A stretch of 64,000 bases of DNA from Chryseolinea serpens (GTDB lineage: Bacteria; Bacteroidota; Bacteroidia; Cytophagales; Cyclobacteriaceae): assembly GCF_900129725.1 (NCBI RefSeq), contig NZ_FQWQ01000002.1, forward strand, positions 620,001 through 684,000, written 5' to 3'. A model generated the notes under the pieces. The model saw nothing but the letters and a program-made list of their open reading frames with translations, was not told the DNA's origin and did no database searches. A program made the translations under genes and the position numbers. Positions 39,015 through 55,166 of the stretch are shown here, one piece after another (the stretch's first letter is position 1; each line of letters begins with the position of its first letter).

Positions 39015-39052
39015 GGACGGATTTTTTTTGTAAACAATAACCATAACGATAC

Positions 39053-39565: not shown

Positions 39566-39579
39566 ACGCGCCCCTCGCC

Positions 39580-39604
39580 TTTGTTGGTGTTCTTCACCAA
39601 CAAA
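39580..39604. repeat. Solo palindromic unit of the GTTGGTG repeat family
   Basis: Arms TTTGTTGGTG and CACCAACAAA pair perfectly around the loop TTCTT, the same 25-bp unit found in the three composite elements. It follows the PepSY gene stop by 15 bases. No immediate T-run is present, so it is not a classic terminator. Confidence 0.85.
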
Positions 39605-39637
39605 TCAGCTACCCAACATTTTTTTCAGTCACACCCC

Positions 39638-40024
39638 TCACTTCCTCCTCCTCGGCACATAATCAAACGGCTTCTTCAAAAACTCCATCGAGTCCAGCAA
39701 GGTGCGCAGGGTCCAGAGACTTTTCACCTCGAAGTTGAAGGTGTCGCCGGCGGCGTCGGTGAAGGTGAGGGTGATGCGGCAGTGGTCGATCTGGGGTGGA
39801 CCGTCGTAGCGGCTCACGACCTCGTAGTCGCCGATGTCGTCGTGGTCGCGGGGGTGCGAGCCGAAGGGGTCGTGATCGATGTGGTAGCGCAGGCTGTCGC
39901 CCACACCCCGCACGGTGAGCATGTGGACCGTGTTGGAATTTTTGCGGCCCGGCCGCCGGCCACCCAATGCATAGTCCTGCTTCCTGATCTTGTACAGGCC
40001 TGGGGTGAGCTCCATCATTTTCAT
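39638..40024 (-). CDS. Hypothetical protein (128 aa)
   Basis: This is a soluble protein without signal peptide, strongly basic at its C-terminus (FDYVPRRRK). It is rich in His and Asp in the centre (YHIDHDPFGSHPRDHDDIGDY), which could bind metal. The rest looks beta-stranded (CRITLTFTDAAGDTFNFEVK). I do not recognise it. It is divergent from another small unknown gene, and the shared 122-bp region has two palindromic operators. Confidence 0.6.
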   Translation of the reverse strand: MKMMELTPGLYKIRKQDYALGGRRPGRKNSNTVHMLTVRGVGDSLRYHIDHDPFGSHPRDHDDIGDYEVVSRYDGPPQIDHCRITLTFTDAAGDTFNFEVKSLWTLRTLLDSMEFLKKPFDYVPRRRK

Positions 40025-40058
40025 GCGGTAAAAGAACGTGTTGGCGTGAATAAAGTCA

Positions 40059-40095
40059 ACTAATATTTTTAGTATTTTGGTCTAATAATATTAGA
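40059..40095. promoter_or_regulatory. Pair of related palindromic operators, 22-bp centre spacing
   Basis: A 15-bp perfect palindrome (TCTAATA-A-TATTAGA, 40081-40095) and a related imperfect one (ACTAATATTTTTAGT, 40059-40073) share the CTAATA half-site. Their centres are exactly 22 bp apart, two helical turns. They lie between divergent genes and just upstream of an exact -7 box. Confidence 0.65.
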
Positions 40096-40114
40096 CATAT
40101 GTTTTTCCTTATTC

Positions 40115-40122
40115 TATCTTTG
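40115..40122 (+). promoter_or_regulatory. Rightward -7 element (TATCTTTG)
   Basis: This exact TAnnTTTG match puts the transcription start near 40129. It therefore decides the start of the following gene in favour of the ATG at 40147 over one at 40099. Confidence 0.6.
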
Positions 40123-40146
40123 CCTCATTCAAAAACAAAGAAGGGC

Positions 40147-40398
40147 ATGGGGCAAATAGAAAGGGATCTGGCACTCAAAACCATTTGCGGCGGTGTTTAC
40201 CACATGTTCACCACCTACAAAAAATTCGAGATCCTGGACCGCGATTGGGAGATGCTGTGCAGCTATTTGAAATCAACCGAGCAGGTTTACGGTGTGGAGA
40301 TGGAGAAAAAGGGGTTTGTGATCACGACGCGCAGCTTTAGGTTGCGGTATGTCCACAGTGATTTTGGAGACCGGAGCGTGGAGATCTTTTATGCATAA
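40147..40398 (+). CDS. Small hypothetical protein (83 aa)
   Basis: The start at MGQIERDLALKTICGG is chosen because the preceding -7 box lies downstream of the other possible ATG. The chain has an N-terminal helix, aromatic-rich middle (VYHMFTTYKKFEILDRDWEML) and C-terminal strands (FVITTRSFRLRYVHSDFGDR). It has no signal or TM segment. I do not recognise the family. It is probably controlled by the palindrome pair upstream. Confidence 0.6.
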   Translation: MGQIERDLALKTICGGVYHMFTTYKKFEILDRDWEMLCSYLKSTEQVYGVEMEKKGFVITTRSFRLRYVHSDFGDRSVEIFYA

Positions 40399-40523
40399 TT
40401 AATTGAGTGGCGCGAATGGTTAGTACGATTCAGTGAAGTATCATTGAAGCCGAGATCAAAGGGGCTCACAGCCACAGCGGCGAGTAGTAAATTAAACTAA
40501 AACAAACAAACCGATAAAGTAGT

Positions 40524-41021
40524 ATGGGAATGATTGGCAACCTGATGCAGGTAACAGAAAAAGACCTGAAAGACATTTTAAAGAACCCCTCTCTCCTCGA
40601 GGATCGCGCCGATGCCGACGAAGCCAAGGACGACGAGATCGACCTGGACAAAGCCTGGGAAGGAATCTTCTATGCCCTGACCGGCTACACCCTGGCCGAG
40701 ATCGAAAAAGTGAAACCCCCTATGGCCTGGGTGGTGTTTGGCGATAAGGTAGTGGACGAAGACCTGGACATGGGCTACGGCCCTGCACAGTACATCACCC
40801 CAGAGCAGGTGAAGCAGTTGAACAAGGAGCTCGACAAAGTGACCGCCGAACAATTGCAGCAAAATTATGACGGAAAGAAAATGACTGACCATGGCATCTA
40901 TCCAGAGATTTGGGAAGAAACCGACGGGCTTGACTATCTCCTGGAATACTTTGCAGAAATGAAAGCGTTTTACAAACGTGCCGGGGAGACGAACAAGGCC
41001 GTTATTTCATTTATAAGCTGA
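40524..41021 (+). CDS. DUF1877 (YfbM-like) protein
   Basis: The 165-residue cytoplasmic protein matches the YfbM/DUF1877 family: N-terminal MIGNLMQVTEKDLKDIL, IDLDKAWEGIFYALTG, the central YGPAQYITPEQVKQLNKEL, and YPEIWEETDGLDYLLEYFAEMK near the end. Length is normal. Family members often appear beside toxin-immunity or defence genes, but nothing here supports that. The start codon is preceded by an A-rich tract as usual in Bacteroidota. Confidence 0.88.
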   Translation: MGMIGNLMQVTEKDLKDILKNPSLLEDRADADEAKDDEIDLDKAWEGIFYALTGYTLAEIEKVKPPMAWVVFGDKVVDEDLDMGYGPAQYITPEQVKQLNKELDKVTAEQLQQNYDGKKMTDHGIYPEIWEETDGLDYLLEYFAEMKAFYKRAGETNKAVISFIS

Positions 41022-41124
41022 TCCACTGTGACAAAAGAAAAGCTGTGGTAGTCTGGGAGTATTGGCCGTGTTTTGACGGCACATTGCGTGCGTTCACGCC
41101 ATGGCCAATACCCTGACCAATCCC

Positions 41125-41868
41125 CTATTCTTTCGAATTGATGATCCTGACGATCCCAAGATCATCGGCGGGCCTCATGCCACACTCCTTCTCTAAAACC
41201 GAGAACTTACGGCTCAACATGTTATCCTTCTCTTTTCCTTCCTGGTCAAGGGTCAGATAGGCTATCGGGTCTTTTTCCAGGGTGTAGCTGTTCTTATCAT
41301 GTCGGGTGAACGTAAAGATCCCATCCGTACAGATGCTTACGTCGTCAATTTTATCGATGGCCAAGTATTGTTTTTGATTTTTATACCACGACTCAAATTC
41401 TTCACCGATGTGGTACCCCAGGTAATCCGGTCTGTTGTCCTGGTCGTATTCAACCCATTGACCGTTGATGGTAACAAGGCCATCGCCAATCACCATAACA
41501 TGTCCGGCGTTCCGGTCAAAATCCACGACGAGGAGAATTAGCGTACACAGCAGTTCATCGGGGTTGAGGTGGAGTTGATTTTTCTGTTGCTTCAGATCGA
41601 GCATCAGCTTCTCAAGGATTTCCTTCAGTTCGGTTTCTTCGCTCTTTGTTTCATGCGCATTATAAAACGCCGTGTAGCTTTTTTCAATCGCAATCTTCCG
41701 CAACAATTTTCCAACCAGGGTTGCAATAAAATAACTGTCGGTCCCCATGGTGCACCCGTCCATCACGGCACACATGATCCGTTGGCCGCCGAGGCTCTCC
41801 ACCACGGCAAAGTCCTCGCAGTGGTTGGTGTGATGTTCCCCAATCTTTAGTAATTGATAAACCTTCAT
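41125..41868 (-). CDS. PP2C-like serine/threonine protein phosphatase
   Basis: The 247-residue protein starts at MKVYQLLKIGEHH; the open frame begins two codons earlier at a TTG. PP2C motifs are visible: HCEDFAVVE (Glu-Asp), CAVMDGCTMG (Asp-Gly), VMVIGDG, ICTDGIF, and ADDLGIVRI at the C-terminus, all aspartate ligands of the dimetal site. The usual second-motif threonine pair is changed (LLCTLILLVVD), so it is a divergent member. It is soluble. The target is unknown; no Ser/Thr kinase is nearby. Confidence 0.8.
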   Translation of the reverse strand: MKVYQLLKIGEHHTNHCEDFAVVESLGGQRIMCAVMDGCTMGTDSYFIATLVGKLLRKIAIEKSYTAFYNAHETKSEETELKEILEKLMLDLKQQKNQLHLNPDELLCTLILLVVDFDRNAGHVMVIGDGLVTINGQWVEYDQDNRPDYLGYHIGEEFESWYKNQKQYLAIDKIDDVSICTDGIFTFTRHDKNSYTLEKDPIAYLTLDQEGKEKDNMLSRKFSVLEKECGMRPADDLGIVRIINSKE

Positions 41869-41966
41869 GTTCAAAATTTTTACGGCGGCCGCAAGCTACT
41901 TCCAATCTACATAAATCTCGGGTTTCGTCGCGGCGTGGTGTTGGTATTTTGTCGGATCATCTTCGA

Positions 41967-41994
41967 AAGGAGCCAGGAGCCAGGAGTTGGGAGC
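41967..41994. repeat. Heptad tandem repeat (CAGGAGC family), 4 units
   Basis: Units AAGGAGC, CAGGAGC, CAGGAGT and TGGGAGC follow each other in perfect 7-bp register. The same family recurs with 7 units at 56634-56682. It lies between the PP2C and esterase genes. Confidence 0.8.
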
Positions 41995-42128
41995 GCAAGT
42001 AGCCGGGGCGAGTGTGGGGTTCGATAGTTAGTTGACGTTGCGTTGGGCACATTGAATATGTGGACATTAAACGCAATATCATCTCCGTTAATCTCTTTTT
42101 CACGACCAGCAAAAGGCTAACATTCCGG

Positions 42129-43157
42129 TCAATCAAAATCAAGGTAGTCGTTGAAGAAGGGCAACAGGTCGTTTAGTACTCTTCCGTCGCGGGACCAGAT
42201 TTTGTTGGTGTGGTCGCCGATGTATTCTTCGGCAAAATGGGTGATGCCGAGGTTTTCGAGGCGTTGGCTGAGCATTCCGATTTGGACGGGGAAGCGGGGT
42301 GCGTCGTTCCGGCCCCAGTCCATTTTGATGGCGGCGAGTTTGCGCAGGTTGTCGGCATATTTTTCAACCATGTAGACGGGCATGTTGGCTTCCCACTTTT
42401 CGAAGATGGGTTGGTTGATGATCATTTTGTCGCCTTCGTAGCTGAAGGGAAAGTCGCAATAGAACGGTGGCTTGTTGGGGTTGGGCGACCATGCTCTTCC
42501 CACGGCGACCAGCACTTTGGGATAGTAGGTCTTCTTCAATTCATCATGGGTCTTGACGGCCTGAACCTCGCGATACGAATTGCTGTTCGGACCAAACTCT
42601 TTTACCATCGCGAGCAACCCGGGGCTCATGGCATAAACACTGCTGAATACTTCGGGGTGGAGCATGGCGATCTTAAAGGCGCCATAACCCCCCATGGAGT
42701 GCCCGCCAATGCCGCGGCTTTCGCGGCGGGCGATCGTTCTGAAATTTTTGTCGACATAGGCCACCAACTCCTTCGATGTGAATTCATCCCAGTTGCCAGT
42801 CAGGGTGGAGTTGCTATAGAAGCTGCCTTCGAAAAGTGTGTATTGATCGGATTGCACCAGGATGAAGGGGCGGATCTTTTTGCTGCGAATGCCTTCATCC
42901 AGGATCTCTTTCATGTTTGAAAAAATACTGTCTTTGCCCATGAATCCGTGCAGGTAGTATATGACCGGGTAACGCTCGCTGTTTCCATCGTAGTTGGGCG
43001 GGAGGTAAACCGAAACCTTGCGATTTGGATTTTCACCACCGGTGTTCTGCAATGATTTAGCGTTTATAAAAAAGCTCTTGATCTTTCCGGTGACCGCCTG
43101 GCCATTCGAATAGTTAAAAGCGACCAGCCAAAATGCCAGGAGGATGTAGTGCTTCAT
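42129..43157 (-). CDS. Secreted esterase D-type alpha/beta hydrolase
   Basis: The 342-residue protein has a signal peptide (cleavage near SNGQ) and the esterase/feruloyl-esterase-like fold. Landmarks are VYLPPNYDGNSERYPVIYYLHGFMG with the oxyanion region, nucleophile elbow GIGGHSMGGYG (Ser154), and catalytic His in EYIGDHTN. Such enzymes remove acetyl, feruloyl or similar acyl groups from plant polysaccharides in the periplasm. The acyl substrate cannot be told. It is monocistronic. A heptad repeat lies downstream and a composite palindromic element upstream. Confidence 0.9.
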   Translation of the reverse strand: MKHYILLAFWLVAFNYSNGQAVTGKIKSFFINAKSLQNTGGENPNRKVSVYLPPNYDGNSERYPVIYYLHGFMGKDSIFSNMKEILDEGIRSKKIRPFILVQSDQYTLFEGSFYSNSTLTGNWDEFTSKELVAYVDKNFRTIARRESRGIGGHSMGGYGAFKIAMLHPEVFSSVYAMSPGLLAMVKEFGPNSNSYREVQAVKTHDELKKTYYPKVLVAVGRAWSPNPNKPPFYCDFPFSYEGDKMIINQPIFEKWEANMPVYMVEKYADNLRKLAAIKMDWGRNDAPRFPVQIGMLSQRLENLGITHFAEEYIGDHTNKIWSRDGRVLNDLLPFFNDYLDFD

Positions 43158-43578
43158 GTTTTTTTTAGTCAGATAAAATTGATAGGAAATGACTTCGGGT
43201 TTTGTTGTTTGTGCGAAAAGCCATAAGACACCGCATTCGATCGAATATGTTGAAATTTATACAATTCCACAAGGAGAGTTTGAGTGGCGGCGGGTTTTAA
43301 ATCTCCCACCGGCGTTGTTGGTGTTTCGTCAACACATTACCGTCGTTGTTGGTGTTCTTCACCAACAACTTTTCTGGCGACGTGTCTTATTTTATATCTA
43401 TCCTTACCGGTGCTCGGCCAACAACAATACATTCCCCCACATCGCTTGTTGGTGAAGAACACCAACAAGGGCGGTACACCAACAAGGGCCCGTATAATCA
43501 ATGTGTGTTATCACACACGAGCCCTCCCCTTGAAATTGATATTAATTTAACTTAAACTTGTTATGAAAGCTTCTTAAC
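43158..43578. other. Divergent intergenic region (421 bp) holding palindromic element A
   Basis: It separates the esterase gene (leftward) from the ECF sigma gene (rightward). Apart from element A, an inverted repeat TGTGTG-TTAT-CACACA lies at 43502-43517, about 60 bases before the sigma gene start. No exact -7 element was found. Confidence 0.6.
43314..43486. mobile_element. Composite palindromic element A (REPIN/MITE-like)
   Basis: The core module is a palindrome at 43345-43369 (arms GTTGTTGGTG/CACCAACAAC, loop TTCTT), a 75-bp spacer, and an inverted palindrome at 43445-43469 (arms CTTGTTGGTG/CACCAACAAG, loop AAGAA). A degenerate extra unit precedes it from 43314 and a half unit (CACCAACAAG) follows at 43477-43486. 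The spacer shares CAACAA and a TTCCCCC segment before the right palindrome with elements B and C. No coding potential is present. Confidence 0.75.
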
Positions 43579-44157
43579 ATGAAAACTGTCCACCACGGTG
43601 ATGAAGAACTCCTGAAACGATTGCACCTGGGCGATGCTGAAGCTTTTGAAGAAATTTTCTCCCGTTTCTGGGAGCGTCTTTATCACGTCGCCAGGGCCCG
43701 GATAAATTCGGAAGAGGAGGCGGAAGAAATTGTGCAGGATATTTTTGCAAGCTTGTGGAAGAATCACCGAACCGTGTTGATCGCCGACTTGCCCAGTTAT
43801 CTTTTTGCTGCTGTTCGCCGGGGTGTGATCAGCAAAATACGCAGCCGGCTCGTTCACCAAAAATACCAGGACTATTACCTGAAGTTCTTTCCGGGTTATG
43901 CACGGACGACCGAAGAAGCCATTGATTTTGAAGAACTGAGTCTCGTCATCGAGAATGCCCTCCAGCAGTTGCCTGAAAAATCACAACAAGTGTTTCGTCT
44001 TAACCGGCTGTTGGGCCGGTCCGTTGCCGAGATCGCTGAGACCCTGAAGATGCCCCGCAGGACCATCGAACATCATCTTACCCTTTCCATCCGGGAACTT
44101 CGCCTGCGTTTGAAGGACTATATGCCTCTCGTCGTCGTGAGCCTGCTGTTGCAGTAG
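43579..44157 (+). CDS. FecI-type ECF sigma factor of a SusCD signalling system
   Basis: The 192-residue protein has region 2 (EEAEEIVQDIFASLWKN, LPSYLFAAVRRGVISKIRS) and region 4 (LPEKSQQVFRLNRL, VAEIAETLKMPRRTIEHHLT). It is typical of the Bacteroidota sigma factors encoded next to FecR and an STN-type SusC. It is held by FecR at the membrane and released when the outer-membrane receptor binds its ligand. Three target-type genes follow on the same strand. The C-terminus (VVVSLLLQ) is hydrophobic, as often seen in this group. Confidence 0.95.
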   Translation: MKTVHHGDEELLKRLHLGDAEAFEEIFSRFWERLYHVARARINSEEEAEEIVQDIFASLWKNHRTVLIADLPSYLFAAVRRGVISKIRSRLVHQKYQDYYLKFFPGYARTTEEAIDFEELSLVIENALQQLPEKSQQVFRLNRLLGRSVAEIAETLKMPRRTIEHHLTLSIRELRLRLKDYMPLVVVSLLLQ

Positions 44158-44272
44158 ATGCCTTTCGGGCACGTTCACGCGTTAGCAAAAAAATATTTTT
44201 AAAAAACTTTCAAATCCTTTGCGGAAAAACCGGGGTAGTGCGTCTTCGTAGTGACCTAAATCCTACGAACCC

Positions 44273-45259
44273 ATGTCGCCCCAGGAAATTGATAAGATCT
44301 TGCAACGTTATCTGAACGATGAATCTACGCCAGAGGAGCAGGAACTGGTGGAGCGCTGGTTCGATGCCATAGGCGAAGAAAAACAAGAACTCGATCCCGC
44401 CACCCGGCAGGCCATCCAGCAAAGACTCTGGTCGTCCTTGAAAGTCGCGAAGCCCAAGCGGCATAACGTTGCATACTTTGCCCGCATGGCCGCGGCGGTC
44501 CTTTTGCTAGCCGTCAGCACATTTTATATCTACCGTCAGTTCACTCCCAGCATTTCCCCCGAGCAAACTATAGCGGATGCCGCCTCCGCAACAGAGGTCG
44601 TTGCCTCCGGCGATACTGAAAAAAGAGTTGAACTATGCGATGGCAGCGTGGTGACCTTAAAGCCGCGAAGTGAGCTCCGTTTCCCGTCGGCCTTTGGCAA
44701 TCAGCGTGAAGTGAGTCTTTCCGGCGAGGCACTCTTTGAAGTGGCGCGGGATGTGAACCACCCTTTCCTGGTACATGCCAATGAAGTGACCACCCGGGTG
44801 TTGGGCACGAGCTTTCTCATCAAAGCCTATGCGCTGGAACAAGACATCACGGTGACCGTGAAGACCGGCAAGGTTTCTGTCTACACCGAGCAAGCCAGCC
44901 CTAAGACCGACAGCCGGCAGGAGATCATCCTGACGCCCAATCAACAAATCGTTTATCACCGGAATGAAAATCAGACGGTGAAAATGCTGGTGAATGATCC
45001 GCAGGTGATCGCACCACAATCCGGTCAGAAAACGAGCTATACCAACATGGCGGTGCCGGAGATCTTTCGCGCACTGGAGGAACGGTATGGCATTCCCATC
45101 CAATTTGATGCAAGTGTGTTGTCGGGTTGCACGATCACGTACGCCGACCTGACGGAGGAGGGATTGTATGAACAAATTGAGATCATCTGTAACGCGCTCG
45201 GAGCGCGGTATAAAAAGTCAGAGTCTTCCATCGTCATCGAAGCGGAAGGCTGTAAATAA
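44273..45259 (+). CDS. FecR-family transmembrane anti-sigma factor
   Basis: The 328-residue protein has a short cytoplasmic domain (about 1-62, IDKILQRYLNDESTPEEQEL), one TM helix (about 70-87) and a periplasmic FecR domain. The latter has ELCDGSVVTLKPRSELRFPS, VSLSGEALFEVARDVNHPF and TTRVLGTSFLIKAY. The C-terminal DUF4974-like segment (VPEIFRALEERYGIPIQFD, ITYADLTEEGLYEQIEIICN) is a secretin/TonB-N-like fold that contacts the STN domain of the partner SusC. It lies 115 bp after the sigma gene and 158 bp before susC. Confidence 0.96.
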   Translation: MSPQEIDKILQRYLNDESTPEEQELVERWFDAIGEEKQELDPATRQAIQQRLWSSLKVAKPKRHNVAYFARMAAAVLLLAVSTFYIYRQFTPSISPEQTIADAASATEVVASGDTEKRVELCDGSVVTLKPRSELRFPSAFGNQREVSLSGEALFEVARDVNHPFLVHANEVTTRVLGTSFLIKAYALEQDITVTVKTGKVSVYTEQASPKTDSRQEIILTPNQQIVYHRNENQTVKMLVNDPQVIAPQSGQKTSYTNMAVPEIFRALEERYGIPIQFDASVLSGCTITYADLTEEGLYEQIEIICNALGARYKKSESSIVIEAEGCK

Positions 45260-45417
45260 ATGATGAACCTAAACGAAGAATCGCCTATGAAGTAAGACCC
45301 CTACAAAAAAAATGAGGCCGACGGTGTTACGAGCACCATCAGCCCTTTCCTGCGCCGGGATCGGAATCCCGGAACGGATTTGTCTTTGCCCTTTTACAAA
45401 CAAAAACATCCCAATTT
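45260..45417 (+). promoter_or_regulatory. fecR-susC gap with 11-codon leader frame and hairpin
   Basis: An ATG immediately after the fecR stop opens an 11-codon frame (MMNLNEESPMK, ending at 45295). Further on, CCGGGAT-CGGA-ATCCCGG (45355-45372) is a perfect 7-bp hairpin followed by a T-rich but broken tract. TGTCTTTG at 45381-45388 is one mismatch from the -7 consensus. The region may attenuate or re-initiate transcription of susCD. Confidence 0.35.
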
Positions 45418-48400
45418 ATGAATAAACCTAAACCTATTCAACATGGATTGCTTTTTCTTATGAAAGTAACAATGTTCTCCATATTGATCTCATCCTTTTC
45501 CCTTGCCATGGCCACGGCCCATAGCAGCGCAGGGCAAGAGACGCTGGAGCGCAAAGTGACGATCGATGTAAAGAACTCCGAGTTTCAAGACGTCCTCTTA
45601 TTCCTGGCGAAACAGGCGAGAGTGAAATTTGTCTATAGCCCCCAGATCGTCAAGAAAGAAAAAAAGGTCACGCTTGCGCTCAACGAAGTATCGCTGGCCG
45701 ACGCCTTGTCGGCCTTGTTGGGTGGCAACTATCGCTATCGCGTCATCGGCAAACAGATTGTTTTAGTGCCGCATCCTCCCGTCAGTTCGGTTGAAGACGA
45801 CGCTGCCAGGAAATTCGCCTATGCCTTCAAGGTATCCGGGGTGGTCACCGATGGTGCCGGCGCCGTGCTGCCCGGCGTCAACGTCATGATCAAGGGAACC
45901 ACGGTTGGAACAACAACCGATTCAAAAGGCGCTTACACCATCGATGCCATCAACGGCGATGCCACGCTGGTGTTTTCGTTTATCGGATTTGCTACCCGGG
46001 AAGTACCCGTCAATAATCAAAGTACGGTGGATGTCATCCTCAACGAAGACACGCAATCGTTAGGGGAAGTTGTCGTCACCGCGCTGGGTCTCACCCGAGA
46101 CAAAGCCGCATTGCCTTATGCGGTTACGGAAGTGCCCGGCGAGAATCTCACGAAAGCCAGGGAAAACAACCTGGGCAGCGCGCTGTCGGGTCGCATTGCC
46201 GGCGTGAATGCCACGAGCACGGCCACGGGCCCGGGTGGTTCAAGCCGTGTCATCATCCGCGGCAACGGTTCCCTGGGTGGAAACAACCAACCGCTCTATG
46301 TGGTCAACGGCATTCCCATTAACAACACCACCTACAGCACCGTCAGCACGTATGGCGGAACAGACAAAGGCGACGGGTTGAACAGCATCAACCCCGACGA
46401 CATCGCGTCGATCTCCGTGTTGAAGGGGGGAACGGCTGCAGCCCTTTACGGTTCGCGCGCTGCAAATGGTGTGATCATCATCACGACCAAGTCGGGCAAA
46501 GCACAAGAAGGTATTGGCGTGGACTTCAGTTCTACCTATACGATGGAGAGTCCACTGAAAGCCACCGACTGGCAGTATGCCTACGGTTCGGGCTCGCGGG
46601 GACTCAAGCCCGCGTCGCAGGCCGATGCCATCGCCAATGGAAGAATGTCGTGGGGAGCACCGATGGATGGCACGTCGGTCATTCAGCCCGATGGGGTGTC
46701 GCGTCCGTATTCGCCTCAAAGAAATAACATCAAGAATTTTTACGATGTAGGAAGTACGTTCTCCAACACGCTTGCGCTGAGTGGAGGAACTGAAGTGGCC
46801 AGCTTCCGGTTCTCGGCCGCCAACATGGACAACAAGGGGATCATCCCGAACTCCACCCTCAATCGCAAAACATTCAACCTGAGTGTCAACTCCACGCTGG
46901 CAAAGAAGGTTGTACTTCAGGCCAATGTGCAGTACAGCATCGAGCTCAACAAAAACCGCACGTCGATCTCCGATTTCACCAGCAACCCGAATGCTTCCGT
47001 TGGAGTGATGGCCACGAGCCTGGATGTGCGCACGCTGGCGCCGGGATATGATGCCGATGGATATGAAACACCGTGGAATGATTATGTGTTTGTGACCAAT
47101 CCATATTTTGCCGTCAACAAAGTAAAAAACCAAGACCAGCGTCACCGGTTGATCTCTTCGTTTAGCACACGCTATAATATCACCGACTGGTTGTATGTGC
47201 GCGGACGACTGGGGATCGACTACTACAACATCGATGGCTACAGCACCAACCCCACGGGCTTGCTCTGGAATCCGAAAGGAGATTATGAAACGACACAGAA
47301 CCAGGCTTCCGAAACCAATGCCGAAGTGTTGATGGGCTTCGACAAAACCTTTGGCAAGTTCTCGGTCACGGCGCTCGCCGGCGGAAACAAAATGCACAAC
47401 GAGGTCTCGTCCGGTGGACTGGAGAGCGGGCAGCTGATCGTCCCCTTCAAATATTTCATTGGCAACGGAAGCAACCAGGTGTTCAAGACCCCCGTGTTCA
47501 GGGAGTCGGCCATCAACTCCATCTTCGCTTCTGTCGACATCGGGTTCAACCACTACCTGTATCTGAGTCTCACCGGCCGCAAAGACTGGTTCTCGACCTT
47601 GTCGATGGCCAACAACAGCAAGTTCTATCCTTCCGCAGGTCTTAGCTTTGTGTTCTCCGACGCCTGGACCACCAAGCCCACGTGGCTGTCGCTCGGAAAA
47701 GTACGGGCATCGCTCGCGCAAGTGGGTGGCGGCGCGCCCGATCCTTATGGACTGGGGCTGAGCTACACGGCGCAATCGGTGAACCACCTCGGCCAGCCGT
47801 TGATGGCCATCACCGGGACCACGATACCGAACGAAAATCTCAAGCCCTACACGTCCACCACAGCGGAAGCGGGTATCGAGACGCGGCTGTTCAACAACCG
47901 CGTAGGCGTAGACCTCACGTTGTACAGAAGAACAACGACGAACGACATCGTGAATGCATCCGTAGCAACATCGTCAAGTTATGAGAGTGTGTTGCTCAAC
48001 GTCGGTGAAATGCGCAACCAGGGAATTGAATTGTTGCTGACCGGCACGCCCGTGACCCTCTCCAACGGACTCACCTGGGATGTGAGCTTTAACATGGCCT
48101 ACAACAACAACAAGGTCATCAAGATCGCCGACGGTTTGACCAGCCTCGCCATCCCCGGAGCGATCCCGCGCACGGAGAATGCCTACATCTATCATTATGA
48201 AGGACAATCGTTCGGCATGATCTCCGGCAACAAAATGATGCGCGACGACAAGGGCAACATCGTCTACAACAATGCCAATGGCATTCCCCTGCAAAGCGAC
48301 ATCACCCCCCTCGGCCGCGGTGTGCCGCCGCTCACCATGGGGTTGAACAACAGCGTGAGCTACAAGAATTTCAACCTGAGCTTTCTCATCGACGGCAAAT

Positions 48401-48846
48401 TCGGTTCGAAGATCTATTCTTCGGCCAATGCTTATGGCGCATACTTTGGCTTGTCGAAGATCACGGCCGATAACCACATTCGTGAAAACGGTGTTGCCGT
48501 TCATGGCGTAGATCAGAATGGCGCAGAGTACGATGCCGTAGTTCCCGCACAGGAATACTACCAGGGCATTGCTTATTCGATCACGGACCAGTTCGTGTAT
48601 GACGCCAGCTTTATCAAGTTGCGTCAACTCACATTCGGTTATTCGGTGCCTCGCTCGCTGCTCGCTAAAACACCCTTCCAGGCATTGAGTCTCTCTTTTG
48701 TGGCGCGGAATCTCTTGTTGTTATACAGCAAGGTCCCGAACATCGATCCGGAGTCAAACTACAGCAATGGCAACGGACAAGGCCTCGAAAACTTCGGGAT
48801 ACCGACCACCCGGAGCTATGGTTTCAACCTATCGGTAAGATTCTAG
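45418..48846 (+). CDS. SusC/RagA-family TonB-dependent transporter with STN signalling domain
   Basis: The 1142-residue protein has a signal peptide, an STN (secretin/TonB N-terminal) domain (about 48-117, VKNSEFQDVLLFLAKQ, LADALSALLGGNYRYRVI) and a carboxypeptidase-D-like domain (about 137-215, GAVLPGVNVMIKGTTVGTT). The plug (IIRGNGSLGGNNQPLYVVNG, VLKGGTAAALYGSRAANGV) and a barrel ending YGFNLSVRF follow. The STN domain passes the ligand signal to FecR, so this transporter senses its own substrate. It forms an operon with the SusD gene 36 bp downstream. Confidence 0.97.
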   Translation: MNKPKPIQHGLLFLMKVTMFSILISSFSLAMATAHSSAGQETLERKVTIDVKNSEFQDVLLFLAKQARVKFVYSPQIVKKEKKVTLALNEVSLADALSALLGGNYRYRVIGKQIVLVPHPPVSSVEDDAARKFAYAFKVSGVVTDGAGAVLPGVNVMIKGTTVGTTTDSKGAYTIDAINGDATLVFSFIGFATREVPVNNQSTVDVILNEDTQSLGEVVVTALGLTRDKAALPYAVTEVPGENLTKARENNLGSALSGRIAGVNATSTATGPGGSSRVIIRGNGSLGGNNQPLYVVNGIPINNTTYSTVSTYGGTDKGDGLNSINPDDIASISVLKGGTAAALYGSRAANGVIIITTKSGKAQEGIGVDFSSTYTMESPLKATDWQYAYGSGSRGLKPASQADAIANGRMSWGAPMDGTSVIQPDGVSRPYSPQRNNIKNFYDVGSTFSNTLALSGGTEVASFRFSAANMDNKGIIPNSTLNRKTFNLSVNSTLAKKVVLQANVQYSIELNKNRTSISDFTSNPNASVGVMATSLDVRTLAPGYDADGYETPWNDYVFVTNPYFAVNKVKNQDQRHRLISSFSTRYNITDWLYVRGRLGIDYYNIDGYSTNPTGLLWNPKGDYETTQNQASETNAEVLMGFDKTFGKFSVTALAGGNKMHNEVSSGGLESGQLIVPFKYFIGNGSNQVFKTPVFRESAINSIFASVDIGFNHYLYLSLTGRKDWFSTLSMANNSKFYPSAGLSFVFSDAWTTKPTWLSLGKVRASLAQVGGGAPDPYGLGLSYTAQSVNHLGQPLMAITGTTIPNENLKPYTSTTAEAGIETRLFNNRVGVDLTLYRRTTTNDIVNASVATSSSYESVLLNVGEMRNQGIELLLTGTPVTLSNGLTWDVSFNMAYNNNKVIKIADGLTSLAIPGAIPRTENAYIYHYEGQSFGMISGNKMMRDDKGNIVYNNANGIPLQSDITPLGRGVPPLTMGLNNSVSYKNFNLSFLIDGKFGSKIYSSANAYGAYFGLSKITADNHIRENGVAVHGVDQNGAEYDAVVPAQEYYQGIAYSITDQFVYDASFIKLRQLTFGYSVPRSLLAKTPFQALSLSFVARNLLLLYSKVPNIDPESNYSNGNGQGLENFGIPTTRSYGFNLSVRF

Positions 48847-48882
48847 AGCATGGCAGTAACCACCTTAATCAGAGAACGAATC

Positions 48883-50475
48883 ATGAAAAATATAAAACAG
48901 CAATTGACCCGACTGACGATCCAGAGCAGCTTGATCATGATCTTACTGGCCTCTGCCTGCGACAGCGGCTTTGAAGAGATGAACAAGAATCCGAATGCCT
49001 TTACCGACCCGGTGATCGGCAGCTTGTTTTCTTACAACCTGATCCGGACCGCAGGCTCGAGTGACGACAACACGTTGTATCCGAACGACAAGCTGGCGGG
49101 AGCCATGATGCAGATCTTCGCATCGCTGAACCCCTACCAATGGACGGGCGACAAGTACTTAAAAAAAGCAGGCTATACCGACGGCCTTTTCAACGCCGTG
49201 TTCGGCACCGAGTTGAAGGAGAACGTACAGATCCTGACGCTCACCAAAGACGATCCGGAAATGGTGAACTACTACAACATCGCCCGCATCTGGCATGTCT
49301 ACATCATGCACCGCGCAACCGACATGTATGGCGACGTCCCCTATTTTGAAGCGGGCCAGGGTTACACCGAAGGCATCTACAAACCGAAGTTCGACAAACA
49401 GGAAGACATCTATGCCGACATGCTGAAAGAACTCGACGAGGCCGCCAAGAACCTCGATCCCTCGAAACCCTCTTTTGGATCGGCCGACTATCTCTATGGC
49501 GGCGACGTGGGCAAGTGGAAGACCTTTGCTTATTCCATGATGCTTCGCCTCGGTCTTCGACTCACCAAAGTTGACCTCGCCCTGTCGGAAACTTGGGTGA
49601 AGAAAGCCATCGCCGGCGGCGTCATGCAAAGCAATGCCGACATCGCCAAACTGAATCACTCGAGCGGCGGTGAACTGAACTACTATTGGGATGGTCGCGA
49701 GCTGCAGGGCGGCGAAGGTGTGCCGCCTTCGGAAGAAGGCAGAGGCTATGGGAAGATGGCACAAACTTTTGTGTCGCACCTGAAAGATACAGGAGACCCC
49801 AGGCTTCCGTTCTACATCACACTGTGGCCGGGAAATGCCGATCCTACCCTGTTGCCAACCAGCACCAATCCTGCGGACCAAAAAGGCCTGCCCTCTGGCT
49901 ACGACGCCTCTTCCATCAAATCCATTATCCCCGATTGGACCGACGATTCCTATGCCGAATACTCGGAGATCAATTTGCACACCGTCGCACATGATGCCAC
50001 GCCGAGCATTTTCCTGAGCTACAACGAGGTGAAACTATATCTCGCCGAGGCTGCCCTCCGGGGCTGGGATGGCGGCGACCCGAAGACGTACTATGAAGAA
50101 GCCGTTACAGCGTCCATGAAAATGGGACCACTCTATCCTGGATCGTTCAGCATTCCACAAGCCGACATCGATCAATACCTGGCCGACAATCCCTACACGG
50201 GCGGCACCTTCGAACAGCAAATGGAACAGATCCACACGCAATTCTGGGTATCCCAATTCATGAACAACATGGAGATCTTCGCCAACTGGAGACGCACGGG
50301 CTACCCCAAGCTGACCCCGACCAATTATCCAGGCAACGAAACCGGCGGAACCATTCCCCGCCGCATCCCCTACCCGCAATCGGAAGCCAGCATCAACACA
50401 GAAAACTACAAGGCCGCCATCGACTCCCAAGGCCCGGATTTATGGACCACCCGGATCTGGTGGGACAAAGAATAG
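48883..50475 (+). CDS. SusD/RagB-family lipoprotein (SusD-like type 2)
   Basis: The start at MKNIKQQLTRLTIQ gives a 530-residue lipoprotein with lipobox LASAC; an ATG 33 bases upstream would displace the signal peptide. The mature N-terminus CDSGFEEMNKNPNAFTDP and the segments NIARIWHVYIMHRATDMYGDVPYFEAGQGY, SYNEVKLYLAEAALRGW and TQFWVSQFMNNMEIFANWRRTGYP are typical of the SusD_like family. This family works with STN-containing SusC proteins and is less tied to glycans than classical SusD. It ends the operon, and a strong terminator follows. Confidence 0.95.
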   Translation: MKNIKQQLTRLTIQSSLIMILLASACDSGFEEMNKNPNAFTDPVIGSLFSYNLIRTAGSSDDNTLYPNDKLAGAMMQIFASLNPYQWTGDKYLKKAGYTDGLFNAVFGTELKENVQILTLTKDDPEMVNYYNIARIWHVYIMHRATDMYGDVPYFEAGQGYTEGIYKPKFDKQEDIYADMLKELDEAAKNLDPSKPSFGSADYLYGGDVGKWKTFAYSMMLRLGLRLTKVDLALSETWVKKAIAGGVMQSNADIAKLNHSSGGELNYYWDGRELQGGEGVPPSEEGRGYGKMAQTFVSHLKDTGDPRLPFYITLWPGNADPTLLPTSTNPADQKGLPSGYDASSIKSIIPDWTDDSYAEYSEINLHTVAHDATPSIFLSYNEVKLYLAEAALRGWDGGDPKTYYEEAVTASMKMGPLYPGSFSIPQADIDQYLADNPYTGGTFEQQMEQIHTQFWVSQFMNNMEIFANWRRTGYPKLTPTNYPGNETGGTIPRRIPYPQSEASINTENYKAAIDSQGPDLWTTRIWWDKE

Positions 50476-50502
50476 CAAGATCCTCTCTTGCAGTTTAGGG
50501 TG

Positions 50503-50545
50503 AACTGCCTGCCCGATCGGTACATCGGCGCAGGCAGTTTTTTTT
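50503..50545 (+). terminator. Intrinsic terminator of the sigma/FecR/SusCD operon
   Basis: A 10-bp stem (AACTGCCTGC and GCAGGCAGTT) with a nested CCGAT/ATCGG stem is followed by eight T, starting 27 bases after the susD stop. Confidence 0.95.
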
Positions 50546-50823
50546 GCTTATATAGGGAGCTCGTTATCGGAGCGCATCACCATTGTTTGCGCTCATCGTC
50601 AAAAATATCTACATCGCCGTTGTTGGTGTCCCACCAACAACATTTTTCGGCAATGTCACCTAATTTTAGTTCCACCCACCCGCCGTTGTTGGTGTTCTTC
50701 ACCAACAACATTCCGGGCGATGTCGTTTATTTCATGCCGGTCATGGTTAACATCTACCTAGCAACAATGCGTTCCCCCGCATCGCTTGTTGGTGAAGAAC
50801 ACCAACAAGGGCGGTGGAATCGA
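50546..50823. other. Intergenic region downstream of susD, occupied by palindromic element B
   Basis: The susD operon and the cupin gene converge here. Beyond the terminator and element B, I see no gene or promoter signal. Confidence 0.65.
50619..50815. mobile_element. Composite palindromic element B (REPIN/MITE-like)
   Basis: A first unit (50619-50641, arms GTTGTTGGTG/CACCAACAAC, 3-base loop) precedes the core module: palindrome 50685-50709, 75-bp spacer, inverted palindrome 50785-50809. The outer ends read CGCC before and GGGCGG after. The element stops 9 bp from the cupin gene stop. Confidence 0.78.
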
Positions 50824-51399
50824 TCATTGCTTATCCTTATAAACCATCCCATATTTCTTCTCCGTCAACGCATACGCCTCGTCGCTTCTTTCCTTGGCGG
50901 GCATCCCCACGGGTGTGCCGTTCTCTATAAAATATTCTTCAAATCCAGCGGGTGAATATTGAAAAACCATGTGCAGGTTTTCTGTGCCGGTGTTGTCAAG
51001 GCCATGCCATGTATCTTTTGGAACAAAGACGACATCGCCAGTCTTTACGGCAATGGTCTCTTCATCCAATGTCAGCGTGCCTTCTCCTTTATGGATAAAA
51101 ATAAGCTCATCATTATTCAGATGTTTATGAACACGCATCTTGCGCCCGGGTGACATGTCCTCCACACAAAATGAAATGCCTTCGACGCCCTGCTTCGCTT
51201 TGGATATTTTTATGGTTATCGGCACTTTCCGCCGCGTTAAAATATGCGTTCCTTCATCTTCCCGTACGACAATACCTTTGTCGCCACCGGACGTTGGCTT
51301 TGCAAAACTGAGGTTCGGGAGGTGGGCAAAGAAAGCAGTACAAAATCCTACTACGCCTACCCGGAGAAATTTTCGACGAGGTTGGTGGATGTGTTTCAT
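50824..51399 (-). CDS. Secreted cupin-domain protein
   Basis: The 191-residue protein begins with a twin-arginine-like leader (RRKFLRVGVVGF), then a cupin barrel: MRVHKHLNNDELIFIHKGEG (metal-binding H-x-H...E) and GDVVFVPKDTWHGLDN with VFQYSP (second cupin motif with His). Metal-binding residues are intact, so an oxygenase, isomerase or sugar-binding role is possible; the substrate is unknown. It lies between palindromic elements B (downstream) and C (upstream). Confidence 0.85.
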   Translation of the reverse strand: MKHIHQPRRKFLRVGVVGFCTAFFAHLPNLSFAKPTSGGDKGIVVREDEGTHILTRRKVPITIKISKAKQGVEGISFCVEDMSPGRKMRVHKHLNNDELIFIHKGEGTLTLDEETIAVKTGDVVFVPKDTWHGLDNTGTENLHMVFQYSPAGFEEYFIENGTPVGMPAKERSDEAYALTEKKYGMVYKDKQ

Positions 51400-51472
51400 G
51401 GTACGCTTGTTGAGTAAACAAGGTAATCAATATAATCGGCAAGTTGCCGGGGCGACGCGTCCATCGTCCGCC

Positions 51473-51668
51473 GTTGTTGGTGTTCTTCACCAACAACATT
51501 TCGGGCGATGCGTCCGCCGTTGTTGATGCTCTTCACCAACAACATCCCGGGCGGTGTGCTCTATTTATATTTGCCCTTTGCTAATACCTCCTTGCAACAA
51601 GACGTTCCCCCGCGTCAACTTGTTGGTGAAGAACACCAACAAGGGCGGGGGAACACCAACAAGGGCGG
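51473..51668. mobile_element. Composite palindromic element C (REPIN/MITE-like)
   Basis: A leading perfect unit (51473-51497) precedes the core module: palindrome 51519-51543 (with two changes in the left arm/loop), 75-bp spacer, inverted palindrome 51619-51643. A half unit (CACCAACAAG) follows at 51654-51663. The spacer matches element B in CGGGCG near its start and GTTCCCCCGCGTC near its end. The element ends 10 bp from the stop of the methyltransferase gene. Confidence 0.78.
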
Positions 51669-51678
51669 TGTACTGATG

Positions 51679-52629
51679 TCACCGGCTGCCAAAAACTCCC
51701 AGCGCGTTAACGTCGTTGATGTCGGTTCCTAGAAAATCCAGCCAGCGTTGTTCGGCCACCTTGGCCATGCAGGGACCATAGGTGAAGATCCTGATTTTTC
51801 TGGACCGGGATTCGTTCTTCAGAATCTCTAAAACCGTTTGTAGCATTTTTCCTTCGAAGGGTGTATACATAAAAAATAGAGTGCCGTCAGAATAGTTTGC
51901 TTCACGCGCGTCGGCGTTAATAAAGGAAACGTCCGATAGATTAAGCTGAGTCGCGCATGCGCTGGCGTATTGACAAAATGCCGGCTCAAATTCAATACCC
52001 TTGGTTCGAAAACCACTGAGGAGATTTACCAGGATGGCTACCTGGCCCAAGCCAGAACCCAGATCAAAAAAAACATCTCCCGGTGTGAATTGGGCTTTCT
52101 CCACCAGTTCGAGAATGATCCTGCCGGGTGTCTTTTGATAATACACCATTTCCGGTTCCAGGCTCCTGATCGCTTCAGGCACCGGTAGAAACGAGGATAG
52201 CCCGTTGAGAAAGATATCGAGATTGTCGTAGCCGATCACTTCGCGTTGCCCGCTGGGATTCAAATCAGCCCCGACGTATTCGTGCAGTAGATTCCTGAGA
52301 TCATCTCCCGTATACTTTTTATTCCGGATGTTTTCGCGAAGGCTTTCAAATAAGGTAGCGTTGACTTTCTCGAGGCGAGCCTTTACGCTTTCGGCGTGAT
52401 CTTTCAGTGAAGTCAATTGACCTGTCGGACTTGTTTTTTGGAGCATCGATTCAATCTGGCCGAGAACATGGTATTCGATAAAATCGATCGCTTCCACTCT
52501 CTCGTTAAAGTTGATTTTGTTCACCAAGACAGAACTCTGATCGATGGCTTCCAGGCACGCCTTTATTCCGGAGATGTCCGTGGGGGAATGAATGCTAGTA
52601 TGGCCGAGGTCCAATCCCTGTGTGGTCAA
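51679..52629 (-). CDS. Class I SAM-dependent methyltransferase with DOT1-like SAM loop
   Basis: The 316-residue protein appears to start at a TTG: an in-frame TAA lies five codons upstream, and the next ATG would remove 61 residues. The N-terminal half is helical (about 20-145). The C-terminal half has SAM motif I at residues about 189-196 (FFDLGSGLGQVAILVNL), acidic motif II (GIEFEP) and NADAREANY, then MYTPFEGKML in the motif IV position. The D-L-G-S-G-x-G-Q-V loop with the preceding Y-x-K-T-P is very like DOT1-family lysine methyltransferases. The substrate is unknown. Element C begins just after its stop. Confidence 0.8.
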   Translation of the reverse strand: MTTQGLDLGHTSIHSPTDISGIKACLEAIDQSSVLVNKINFNERVEAIDFIEYHVLGQIESMLQKTSPTGQLTSLKDHAESVKARLEKVNATLFESLRENIRNKKYTGDDLRNLLHEYVGADLNPSGQREVIGYDNLDIFLNGLSSFLPVPEAIRSLEPEMVYYQKTPGRIILELVEKAQFTPGDVFFDLGSGLGQVAILVNLLSGFRTKGIEFEPAFCQYASACATQLNLSDVSFINADAREANYSDGTLFFMYTPFEGKMLQTVLEILKNESRSRKIRIFTYGPCMAKVAEQRWLDFLGTDINDVNALGVFGSR

Positions 52630-52775
52630 CTTGTGGTGCGTTTAAGGTCGTCCGTTTCCGTGCTAAAGTTTGGATTTTTTGACGTCCCAGGCAACCTATC
52701 AAAACGATCTTGTTCAAGGGCGCGGTTATCCCTGCATGCGAGCAAGCACACCAGTCCGGGGTCGGCTGATATCCG

Positions 52776-55166
52776 CTATTCCGTTCTCAGGCTTTTGACG
52801 GGGTTCATGATGGCGGCTTTGATGGAGTGGTACGATACGGTGGCCAGCGCGACCAATACCGTGACCGCGCCTGCCGCGGCGAACATCCACCATTCCAGGT
52901 CGATCTTGTAGGCAAAATCCTGGAGCCAGCGGTCGGTGCTCCACCAGGCGATGGGTGTGGCGAGTGCGATGGCCACCACGACCAGTTTGATGAAGTCGCT
53001 GGAAAGGAGTTGTACGATGTTGGCCATGGTGGCGCCGAGCACTTTGCGGATGCCGATCTCTTTTGTCCGCTGTTCGGCCGCATAGGTGGCCAAACCGAAA
53101 AGCCCCAGGCACGATACGATGACGGCCAGCACGGAGAAGAACAGGATGATGGTGCCGCTGTTTTGTTGCGTGCGATATTGCGCGTCGAGCGCCTCGCCGA
53201 TGAATTGATATTGCAGGGCGGCCTGGTCTTCGTGTGTTTTATAGATCTTCGCGACGGTGGCCAAGGCCTCGCGCGTGTGCCCGGGTTGTGTTCTCACAAA
53301 AACACCGGCATAGCTGCTCTTTGCCCAGTAGCGAAAAATAAAAGGCTCGATCACGGCCGTCATGGGGCGGAAATGAAAATCTTTCACCACACCCACAACG
53401 GTGCCTTCCTTACCCCAGAGCGTAACGGCTTTGCCCAGGGCTTGCTCAGCGGTCCATCCCATGCGGCGTGCAGCCGTCTCGTTGAGCAGGTAGGCGGTCG
53501 TGTCGGATGCACCCGGCACGAAGTTTCTGCCGGCGGCCAGCGTCATGCCCATGGTGCGCAGAAAATCGGCGTCGGTATTGATTTGTGTGATCAGGAATTT
53601 ATCATCGGCCGGCTGTCCTTCCCACCCGATCGACCATGTGGAGTTCGTCACATCGACCATGTCGCTGGTTGCCGGTGCCACTGCGACAATACCGGGTTGA
53701 TTTTCCAATTCATTTTTAAACGTCAGCGCCTTGCCGTTGAGTTTGTTTTTGAGCCGCATATATAACAATTGCTCGCGGTCAAATCCGAGCTGTTTGTCCT
53801 GGATGAAACGGAGTTGTTTGTAGATCACGATCGAGCCGATGACAAGCATCACGGCAAACATGAATTGCCCGACCACAAGCGCGCGCCGGAAGGTGATGCC
53901 AGAGCGGACTTTCAAAAATCCCTTGAGCACTTTAGCCGGCGAAAAGCTTGACAAGAAGAACGCGGGGTAAAGTCCAGCCAGCAGACTGATCATCACTGTG
54001 GCCAACGCCACGGCTACCAGGAAGTCTATTTTTTCAAAGGGCACGTAGAGTGATTTACCCGATATCTCGTTCAGCAAGGGCAAGAAGAGCTGCAAGAGGG
54101 CCAGCGCCACCACCACTGCCAGGGCGGTGAGCAAGAACGACTCCACCAGGAACTGGGCGACGAGTTGTTTGTACATCGCGCCGATCACTTTGCGCACGCC
54201 CACTTCCTTGGCGCGATGCGTGGCCCGCGCGGTGGACAAATTCACAAAATTGAATATAGCAATCAGCAACACCATCAGCGCCACGGCGAAAAAAATGCGC
54301 ACATAGGCAATGTCGCTCGTCCGGGCATCGTCGCTGTTGAAATCGAAGTGGGAGTGCAGGTAGATGTCCTTCATGGGTTGCAGAAAGAGGGTGCGGGCTT
54401 CGTCTTTTGAACCGATCTCGGAATAGCGGTCGATGTAGTTTCTTAGCTTGTGATCGAATGCCACCGGGTCGGCCGACGGGTTCAATAATACATAGGTATA
54501 GTACGAGTTGTTGTCCCACTTGAAATAGTCGTACTTCTCCACGGTGAGCATTGAGAGCAACACGTCGTAGCGGATGTGGGAATTTACGGGCGGATCGTCG
54601 ACAATGCCGGTCAGCGTCAGCGTATAGTCCACGCCGTAGCTGGTCATGCTGATGGTCGTCCCCAGGAGGTTGGGTTTGGTTGGCCAGTCGGGGCCAAGCA
54701 ATTGGGATGCGACGGACCGGGTGAGCACGATCTCGTCTGGCCGGCGCAGGGCCTGGGCGGGGTTGCCCTTTAATAATTTAAAATCAAACATCGAAAAGAA
54801 ACTGTTGTCCACCAGGCGGATGTCGGCGGGCTCCACGTGTTTTTGTCCGGTCTCCAGTATGCCATTGGTCCTGCCGAGCCGGCAGCTTTGTTGCACTTCT
54901 GCGAAATCCGTTTTCATGGCCGGGCCGAGCGGGCCGGGGGTGCAGGCCACGTCATAGAGCACACCGGCTTGTTTTTGTTTTTCAACTACGCGATAGAGCC
55001 GGGGGAGCTTCGCGTGAAATTTATCAAAACTGAATTCATCATGGATGAAAAGTCCGATGCCCAGACCGCAGGCCAAGCCGATGGCCAGCCCCGTGACGTT
55101 GATGAGCGAGTAGGCTTTACCGTTGATGAGGTTTCTCCATCCGTAGCGAAAGTAACTCTTATACAT
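52776..55166 (-). CDS. FtsX-type ABC transporter permease (MacB-like, two FtsX domains)
   Basis: The 796-residue protein opens with the usual Cytophagales FtsX start (YFRYGWRNLINGKAYSLINVTGLAIGLA, TM1). A periplasmic MacB-PCD domain is followed by three TM helices (DIAYVRIFFAVALMVLLIAIFNFVNLSTARATHRAKEVGVRKVIGA), then a second PCD and a C-terminal FtsX domain with EIGIRKVLGA. The E-x-G-x-R-K coupling helices that contact the ATPase are present in both halves. No ATPase gene is adjacent, so the partner must be elsewhere. These permeases take part in efflux or lipoprotein-related mechanotransmission across the envelope. Confidence 0.92.
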   Translation of the reverse strand: MYKSYFRYGWRNLINGKAYSLINVTGLAIGLACGLGIGLFIHDEFSFDKFHAKLPRLYRVVEKQKQAGVLYDVACTPGPLGPAMKTDFAEVQQSCRLGRTNGILETGQKHVEPADIRLVDNSFFSMFDFKLLKGNPAQALRRPDEIVLTRSVASQLLGPDWPTKPNLLGTTISMTSYGVDYTLTLTGIVDDPPVNSHIRYDVLLSMLTVEKYDYFKWDNNSYYTYVLLNPSADPVAFDHKLRNYIDRYSEIGSKDEARTLFLQPMKDIYLHSHFDFNSDDARTSDIAYVRIFFAVALMVLLIAIFNFVNLSTARATHRAKEVGVRKVIGAMYKQLVAQFLVESFLLTALAVVVALALLQLFLPLLNEISGKSLYVPFEKIDFLVAVALATVMISLLAGLYPAFFLSSFSPAKVLKGFLKVRSGITFRRALVVGQFMFAVMLVIGSIVIYKQLRFIQDKQLGFDREQLLYMRLKNKLNGKALTFKNELENQPGIVAVAPATSDMVDVTNSTWSIGWEGQPADDKFLITQINTDADFLRTMGMTLAAGRNFVPGASDTTAYLLNETAARRMGWTAEQALGKAVTLWGKEGTVVGVVKDFHFRPMTAVIEPFIFRYWAKSSYAGVFVRTQPGHTREALATVAKIYKTHEDQAALQYQFIGEALDAQYRTQQNSGTIILFFSVLAVIVSCLGLFGLATYAAEQRTKEIGIRKVLGATMANIVQLLSSDFIKLVVVAIALATPIAWWSTDRWLQDFAYKIDLEWWMFAAAGAVTVLVALATVSYHSIKAAIMNPVKSLRTE

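Follow-up and report, generated by a model that had tools for sequence, protein, structure and literature searches.

We analysed a stretch of 64,000 nucleotides from Chryseolinea serpens (contig NZ_FQWQ01000002.1, positions 620,001 to 684,000; G000:C8:620001-684000 by our labels), referred to here as the window, which belongs to a genome of 8.36 Mb in 10 contigs. The window contains three modules, each made of two inverted palindromes around a core, and we conclude with a probability of about 0.93 that these are REPINs, inverted pairs of repetitive extragenic palindromic (REP) hairpins that a cognate REP-associated tyrosine transposase (RAYT) of the HUH/Y1 type, most likely encoded by a gene of 176 amino acids (aa), would move in single-stranded form. 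An earlier note on this DNA had recognized in the modules the layout of REPINs or of a non-autonomous mobile element, and this is now strongly supported by the copy number of the palindrome, its outer tag, the preference for in-facing pairs and a RAYT gene that carries the palindrome at both ends. The tag-to-tag extent of the copied unit, the linkage of RAYT and hairpin in several genomes, the fold and family of the RAYT, and the parallel divergence of RAYTs and hairpins were established as well.

The REP family and its paired arrangement

Searching the C. serpens genome for the palindrome with up to two mismatches returned 131 copies, and the reversed control none, which excludes the possibility, raised in the earlier note, that only these few copies exist. 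A subtype with an identical stem and a loop of 3 nt, mostly TCC among the places listed, was present in 60 copies with up to one mismatch (control 0). Within the window, GTTGTTGGTG had 39 matches with at most one mismatch, compared with 4.7 (standard deviation 2.2, largest 12) over 100 shuffles. Further unit statistics refer to 116 units from fetched loci, 112 of them with up to two mismatches, out of the 131 counted. A REP of this family is made up of CGCC, or more rarely another base ahead of GCC, and then a 10-bp hairpin whose loop is TTCTT, and the tagged single-strand hairpin reads CGCC-TTGTTGGTG-TTCTT. Two features were seen outside the search pattern: CGCC stood 5′ of the hairpin in 104 of these 112 units (CGTC in one), and the outermost pair was Watson-Crick in 106, being C-G in 44, G-C in 38 and T-A in 24. 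The one-sided tag and the varying outermost pair are those of a covarying hairpin with a conserved tag, and covariation, which the earlier note had named as a feature to look for, is there in three kinds of pair. As the tag is CGCC, the units are not canonical GTAG REPs. On the 3′ side of the hairpin there was no strongly conserved base that would mark a cleavage site, the best being a T at the fourth position (68 of 112). Only 15 of the 116 units fell within open reading frames (ORFs) of at least 200 aa, compared with 1592 of 2320 random positions (these being ORFs, not annotated genes), and the high copy number (131 + 60 units) and mostly extragenic location are those of REPINs. Beside one REP, on contig C7 at about 846742-846840, a stretch of about 100 bp has more than 20 matching places in the congeneric genome G163 and appears to be another dispersed repeat family of the genus.

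The three inverted pairs that the earlier note had placed at 43345/43445, 50685/50785 and 51519/51619, each of 25 + 75 + 25 bp, were confirmed at these positions. Genome-wide, neighbours within 200 bp numbered 39, against 0.3 expected if the units were evenly spread; 19 of them faced inwards, 4 outwards and 16 the same way, and two nearby inverted REPs, as in a REPIN, are a recurrent arrangement. In G163, for which pair geometry was taken from 100 units listed out of 112 counted, in-facing pairs within 200 bp outnumbered out-facing ones 12 to 1. The spacing of the in-facing pairs was 99-168 bp in C. serpens and 99-158 bp in G163, where five had 99-100 bp. The 100-bp spacing described by the earlier note holds for the three window pairs, and two more loci, both on contig C10, have 99 bp, but it is not invariant: cores of the 19 in-facing pairs measured 74-143 bp, which refutes the length part of the proposal and no other.

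Comparison of cores revealed what is copied. The three window cores (identities of 44/75, 44/76 and 51/76; z of 8.7, 5.4 and 7.7 in alignments against shuffles) are homologues of each other, and their equal length fits one common subfamily. Comparing the cores of all 19 in-facing pairs with one another gave z above 4 against shuffles in 18 of 171 cases. For the 12 best same-core pairs (core z 5.1-14.0) we compared also the 100-bp flanks, and in the nine that lie outside the window the flank z was only -1.0 to 2.2. In one of these nine the two copies are only 3 kb apart; in the rest they lie on different contigs or are separated by hundreds of kb, up to 1.4 Mb. Cores are thus alike where flanks are unlike, and therefore the copied unit is the doublet from tag to tag, a duplicated doublet being what is expected of REPINs. 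Inside the window, an origin of the three modules from a single REPIN by segmental duplication, through recombination rather than three transpositions, would concern these copies only and be compatible with their being REPINs. Their related cores lie within 8.3 kb, and the two pairs that include 51519 have some similarity in the left flank (z 3.5 and 5.2), where local duplication may have helped. We consider such an origin unlikely for the three as a whole, as the pair 43345/50685 has a core z of 6.8 but flank z of -0.1 and -1.3, and as same-core pairs elsewhere are far apart with unlike flanks.

The RAYT gene and its linkage with the hairpin

We checked the Y1 loci of 14 related genomes, and the locus of G171 was bracketed by the family palindrome; a translated search with the G171 protein led to a RAYT of C. 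serpens, 50% identical. This 176-aa HUH/Y1 protein (counted from its ATG) is encoded at G000:C8:32098-32586, about 587 kb before the window on the same contig. Tagged hairpins bracket the gene in inverted order, at 1414 (+) and at 2170, 2277, 2384 and 2491 (-) of locus L174, and the gene is flanked by its own REPs as expected of a RAYT; the earlier note had rightly pointed to a RAYT-like HUH (Y1) transposase with the palindrome at its flanks. Both the HUH motif and the catalytic tyrosine region are present (NHMH and YIHLNP), and H60, H62, Y136, N140 and P141 were invariant across 20 sequences. The NCBIfam model REP_Tyr_transpos (NF047646) gave 90.4 bits against a cut-off of 80; Pfam Y1_Tnp gave 16.1 bits, under its cut-off of 23, and the gene was missing from the Pfam search. 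An AlphaFold2 model of the protein (mean predicted local distance difference test score 92.4) had as its best structural match the Escherichia coli TnpA-REP with its REP hairpin (4er8; E 1.9e-8, Z 14.9, root-mean-square deviation 2.7, 136 residues aligned), which was also the sole match at E ≤1 in a sequence search of PDB, with 20-21% identity. We consider this gene to be most likely the cognate RAYT. Upstream of it, at C8:32767-33110, four (-) REPs form an exact 107-bp tandem array.

The NF047646 search of the C. serpens genome returned two genes, the cognate RAYT and the gene at L047. The latter and L046, two Y1_Tnp genes that had been found first by the Pfam model, were rejected as partners, as they are accompanied by other palindromes and none of the family occurs within their 3-kb loci. 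Their distinct hairpins (L046 2011-2356; L047 1206-1229) suggest that other REP-like families may be present in the genome.

Within the taxonomic family of C. serpens, 13 of 196 genomes had at least seven copies of the palindrome, and in nine of them a RAYT adjoins a family hairpin (G000, G163, G118, G005, G074, G094, G183, G024 and G171). In G171, G118, G074, G094, G183 and G005 the RAYT lies between inverted tagged hairpins, with small differences in the last five; three of these genes appear to be disrupted or split, that of G094 having an internal stop and the G183 and G005 genes matching piecewise. G024 has a hairpin on one side of the RAYT only, with a TTTTT loop, and in G133, G194 and many others the stems differ from those of C. 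serpens. Within the same taxonomic family, 33 RAYT loci had 66 GCC-tagged hairpins pointing inward and 15 outward. A second set, apparently sharing at least one genome with the first, comprised the best 80 RAYT loci of genomes that carry a name, which by their titles are all Bacteroidota; to these a stricter hairpin rule was applied. Here 98 GCC hairpins faced inward and 30 outward, compared with 0.4 in base-shuffled flanks, and in-facing ones were found at 41 of the 80 loci, on both sides at 30 and on one side at 11. The tip GTG...CAC was seen in 69 of the 98. RAYT distance and stem distance were correlated (Spearman 0.44, and 0.32 for pairs below 55% identity) over the 70 of 113 loci that had a hairpin and enough protein, and none of 2000 permutations, which ignore shared descent, was as high (best 0.19).

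On either side of the RAYT element of G171 (L141), at approximately 1061-1177 and 1934-2049, about 115 bp of host flank is present in very similar copies that include a terminator-like hairpin. RAYTs are not known to generate target duplications of such a size.

Window modules and their counterparts in a congener

The congener G163 consists of one 8.24-Mb contig and has 110 palindromes. All three window REPINs have orthologous sites there, which indicates that the copies predate the split of the species. The G163 hairpins match those of the window at 148 of 150 positions, both hairpins of REPIN 1 and of REPIN 2 being unchanged, whereas core identity is 59/75 for REPIN 1, 55/75 for REPIN 2 and 44/76 for REPIN 3 (58-79% overall); the block 43341-50560 is 88.5% identical. 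Hence it is the hairpins that were kept and not the cores, the hairpins being either conserved or renewed again and again and the cores neither.

This pattern is also what could be expected if the modules were a host-function RNA or DNA fold (for mRNA stability, as a terminator or riboswitch-like) with a length of 100 bp under selection. Moreover, the units avoid long ORFs, and each 133-base module folded as single-stranded DNA more strongly than all 200 shuffles (z -6.7, -9.4 and -5.3). This strong folding arises because the two hairpins of a module, being inverted copies, pair with one another, as would any inverted REP pair. The spacing varies from 99 to 168 bp, same-core copies have no common flanks, and a search of window positions 39000-53000 against Rfam gave no match at the gathering threshold, by which a known structured RNA was rejected. 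Terminator as a general function was rejected as well: of 112 units, just 11 had a T-rich tail on one strand and none had it on the other, and the ordinary terminators considered by the earlier note do not fit. We therefore regard a host fold as very improbable, and the selected fold that had been deduced from an invariant geometry did not hold up, given lengths that vary genome-wide and cores that diverge between hairpins that do not. A host role on top of mobility could nevertheless exist.

The RAYT of G163 (C1:7716578 to 7716973; L196 1959-2507) is bracketed like that of C. serpens, and its upstream array has two REPs, 134 bp apart, compared with four. By eye, its reading frame departs from the family alignment just past the catalytic tyrosine motif, as would result from a frameshift, and the 110 palindromes of G163 are thus found despite a RAYT that is apparently frameshifted after this motif. 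Comparing 35 clusters of C. serpens over 21 locus pairs, we could place 26 in G163 by anchors on either side, and in 25 of them a unit is present there too; the regions were biased, having been picked because they bear units, and L108 was the sole unbiased one. L108 includes C. serpens units that are absent from G163, without a clean junction.

In the mechanism that we propose, two inverted REP hairpins around a variable core would travel as single-stranded DNA, with the RAYT of the genome binding and cleaving these hairpins and the GCC tag possibly guiding cleavage, as proposed for GTAG. Copies would still move, tandem duplication would then enlarge local arrays, and copies common to the congeners would stay put, their cores changing and their hairpins being kept.

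Several observations weigh against this reading. The canonical GT[AG]G tag is absent from the units of C. serpens. Four of the 13 genomes with at least seven copies, G160 (62 copies), G059 (18), G093 (9) and G137 (8), had no hairpin-bracketed RAYT in the loci inspected; in G160 these loci yielded no cognate RAYT, though draft-contig gaps could hide one, and the RAYT of G137 had one family palindrome nearby, facing outward. The repeats can hence persist without a detected partner. Conversely, the RAYT of G015, from the same genus and 61% identical, had no flanking hairpin, and in this genome the palindrome search returned just two matches, each with two mismatches and another loop. Under the strict rule, 39 of the 80 loci had no GCC hairpin and 7 had outward ones on both sides, and shared descent may contribute to the RAYT-stem correlation. 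Finally, the empty sites for which the earlier note had suggested a search did not appear: the comparison with G163 revealed no clean empty site, excision or transposition, and where the REPIN at C7:845726 is missing the junction is rearranged. The four genomes would fit another explanation, in which the modules are miniature inverted-repeat transposable elements of a different transposon and the RAYT is their neighbour by chance. We find this hardly credible, as inverted tagged hairpins bracket the RAYT in several genomes, RAYT and stem diverge together, and the other two Y1 genes of C. serpens have no family palindrome in their 3-kb loci (other transposase kinds beside the units were not searched for).

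Features of the window are listed in Table 1. The right palindrome of each module is the reverse complement of the left one, the loop TTCTT becoming AAGAA, except for the outermost pair, which is G-C on the left and C-G on the right; the left palindrome of REPIN 3 has two further changes (GTTGTTGATGCTCTTCACC...). In G163, the place syntenic to the 3-nt-loop unit lacks the surrounding stretch and is shorter by 119 bp, and an extra array of 45-bp repeats lies at the site of REPIN 1. Between REPINs 1 and 2, at 43579-50472, are genes for an extracytoplasmic function (ECF) sigma factor, FecR, a TonB-dependent receptor and a SusD-like protein, probably a regulated outer-membrane uptake operon.

Table 1. 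Modules interpreted as REPINs, single REPs and REP remnants, in window positions.
Feature	Position	Strand	Composition
REPIN 1	43341..43473		tag CGTC 43341-43344, hairpin 43345-43369, core 43370-43444, inverted hairpin 43445-43469, tag GGCG 43470-43473
REPIN 2	50681..50813		tag CGCC 50681-50684, hairpin 50685-50709, core 50710-50784, inverted hairpin 50785-50809, tag GGCG 50810-50813
REPIN 3	51515..51647		tag CGCC 51515-51518, hairpin 51519-51543 (2 changes), core 51544-51618, inverted hairpin 51619-51643, tag GGCG 51644-51647
Single REP	51469..51497	+	CGCC tag and 25-bp hairpin (from 51473); oriented like the left REP of REPIN 3
Single REP, 3-nt-loop subtype	50615..50641	+	CGCC + GTTGTTGGTG-TCC-CACCAACAAC; hairpin from 50619
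Single REP	39576..39604	+	CGCC + TTTGTTGGTG-TTCTT-CACCAACAAA; hairpin from 39580; beyond the interval of the earlier note
Degenerate REP remnant	43314..43335	+	GTTGTTGGTG without intact second arm
Half-REP remnant	43477..43489	-	CACCAACAAGGGC
Half-REP remnant	51654..51666	-	CACCAACAAGGGC

Comparison with known REP systems

The GTAG and CGTC classes cover most REPs, and the CGTC class was reported without a dedicated transposase (PMC3733652). CGTC REPs have a hairpin of 8-9 bp with a 4-5-nt loop, a one-sided tag with TGTC and CCTC variants and a CCA-like tail, and occur mostly as inverted dimers, Bacteroidetes being among their phyla (PMC3733652). The family described here resembles them in its short hairpin, its inverted dimers and a one-sided tag, CGCC, that is one base away, and the window REP at 43341 even reads CGTC. 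It differs in having an attached RAYT and no conserved CCA-like tail, and on these features it does not belong to that class. Most REP dimers have spacers of 20-100 bp (PMC3733652), compared with the cores of 74-143 bp found here.

With the REPINs and RAYTs of Pseudomonas fluorescens and enterobacteria the system shares inverted REPs, high copy number, a conserved tag and an HUH/Y1 gene (PMC8049555), but its tag is CGCC-like and not GT[AG]G, and its RAYT apparently belongs to another subclass. The E. coli repeats also persist in genomes that have no transposase gene (PMC8049555). E. coli TnpA-REP (PDB 4er8) has the fold closest to that of the C. serpens RAYT, whereas the E. coli REP, with its GTAG tag and bulged stem (PMC8266576), is unlike this family. 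GTAG is treated as the guide to the cleavage site (PMC8266576), and by extension GCC could have this role here.

Also close are the RAYTs of subclass 2.6, or group 5, which are mostly from Bacteroidetes, have about 179 aa and carry the motifs NH[LIV]H and YIH[QN]NP (Quentin et al., 2018, PMC6006769). Most of the RAYT clade that we collected has NH[IF]H and YIHNNP-like motifs; the C. serpens protein, with NHMH and YIHLNP, is probably a member of subclass 2.6. The hairpins of subclass 2.6 flank the gene, have no GT[AG]G, were called atypical and weaker, and have copies elsewhere in the genome; no tag is given for them in the cited text (PMC6006769). The likeness thus extends to the phylum, the length (176 aa), the gene-flanking hairpins without GT[AG]G and the dispersed copies, to which the present system adds a GCC tag, a perfect 10-bp stem, frequent doublets and copy numbers. 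The earlier note knew of no named family with this sequence; our literature searches found no description of a Bacteroidota REPIN that names it either, but the class itself, as the subclass 2.6 hairpins, is in print (PMC6006769).

Because in-facing GCC hairpins occur at about half of the 80 RAYT loci (41), tips of the GTG...CAC type prevail and stems track the RAYT, we lean, with moderate confidence, towards a third REP tag class that extends across the phylum. The Bacteroidota RAYTs of this clade would recognise GCC, mostly preceded by C, T or A, with a hairpin whose tip is GTG-loop-CAC; the tag would replace GTAG as the cleavage guide, and sustained REPIN populations would coevolve with their transposase. 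Whereas the cited experiments and models of REPINs and RAYTs concern Proteobacteria and the GTAG tag, C. serpens offers a defined Bacteroidota system with an apparently intact RAYT, its hairpin, nearly 200 units in two loop subtypes and full doublets that form subfamilies, and with a congener in which copies occupy corresponding sites. In this system it can be tested directly whether the GCC tag guides cleavage and why hairpins outlast cores.

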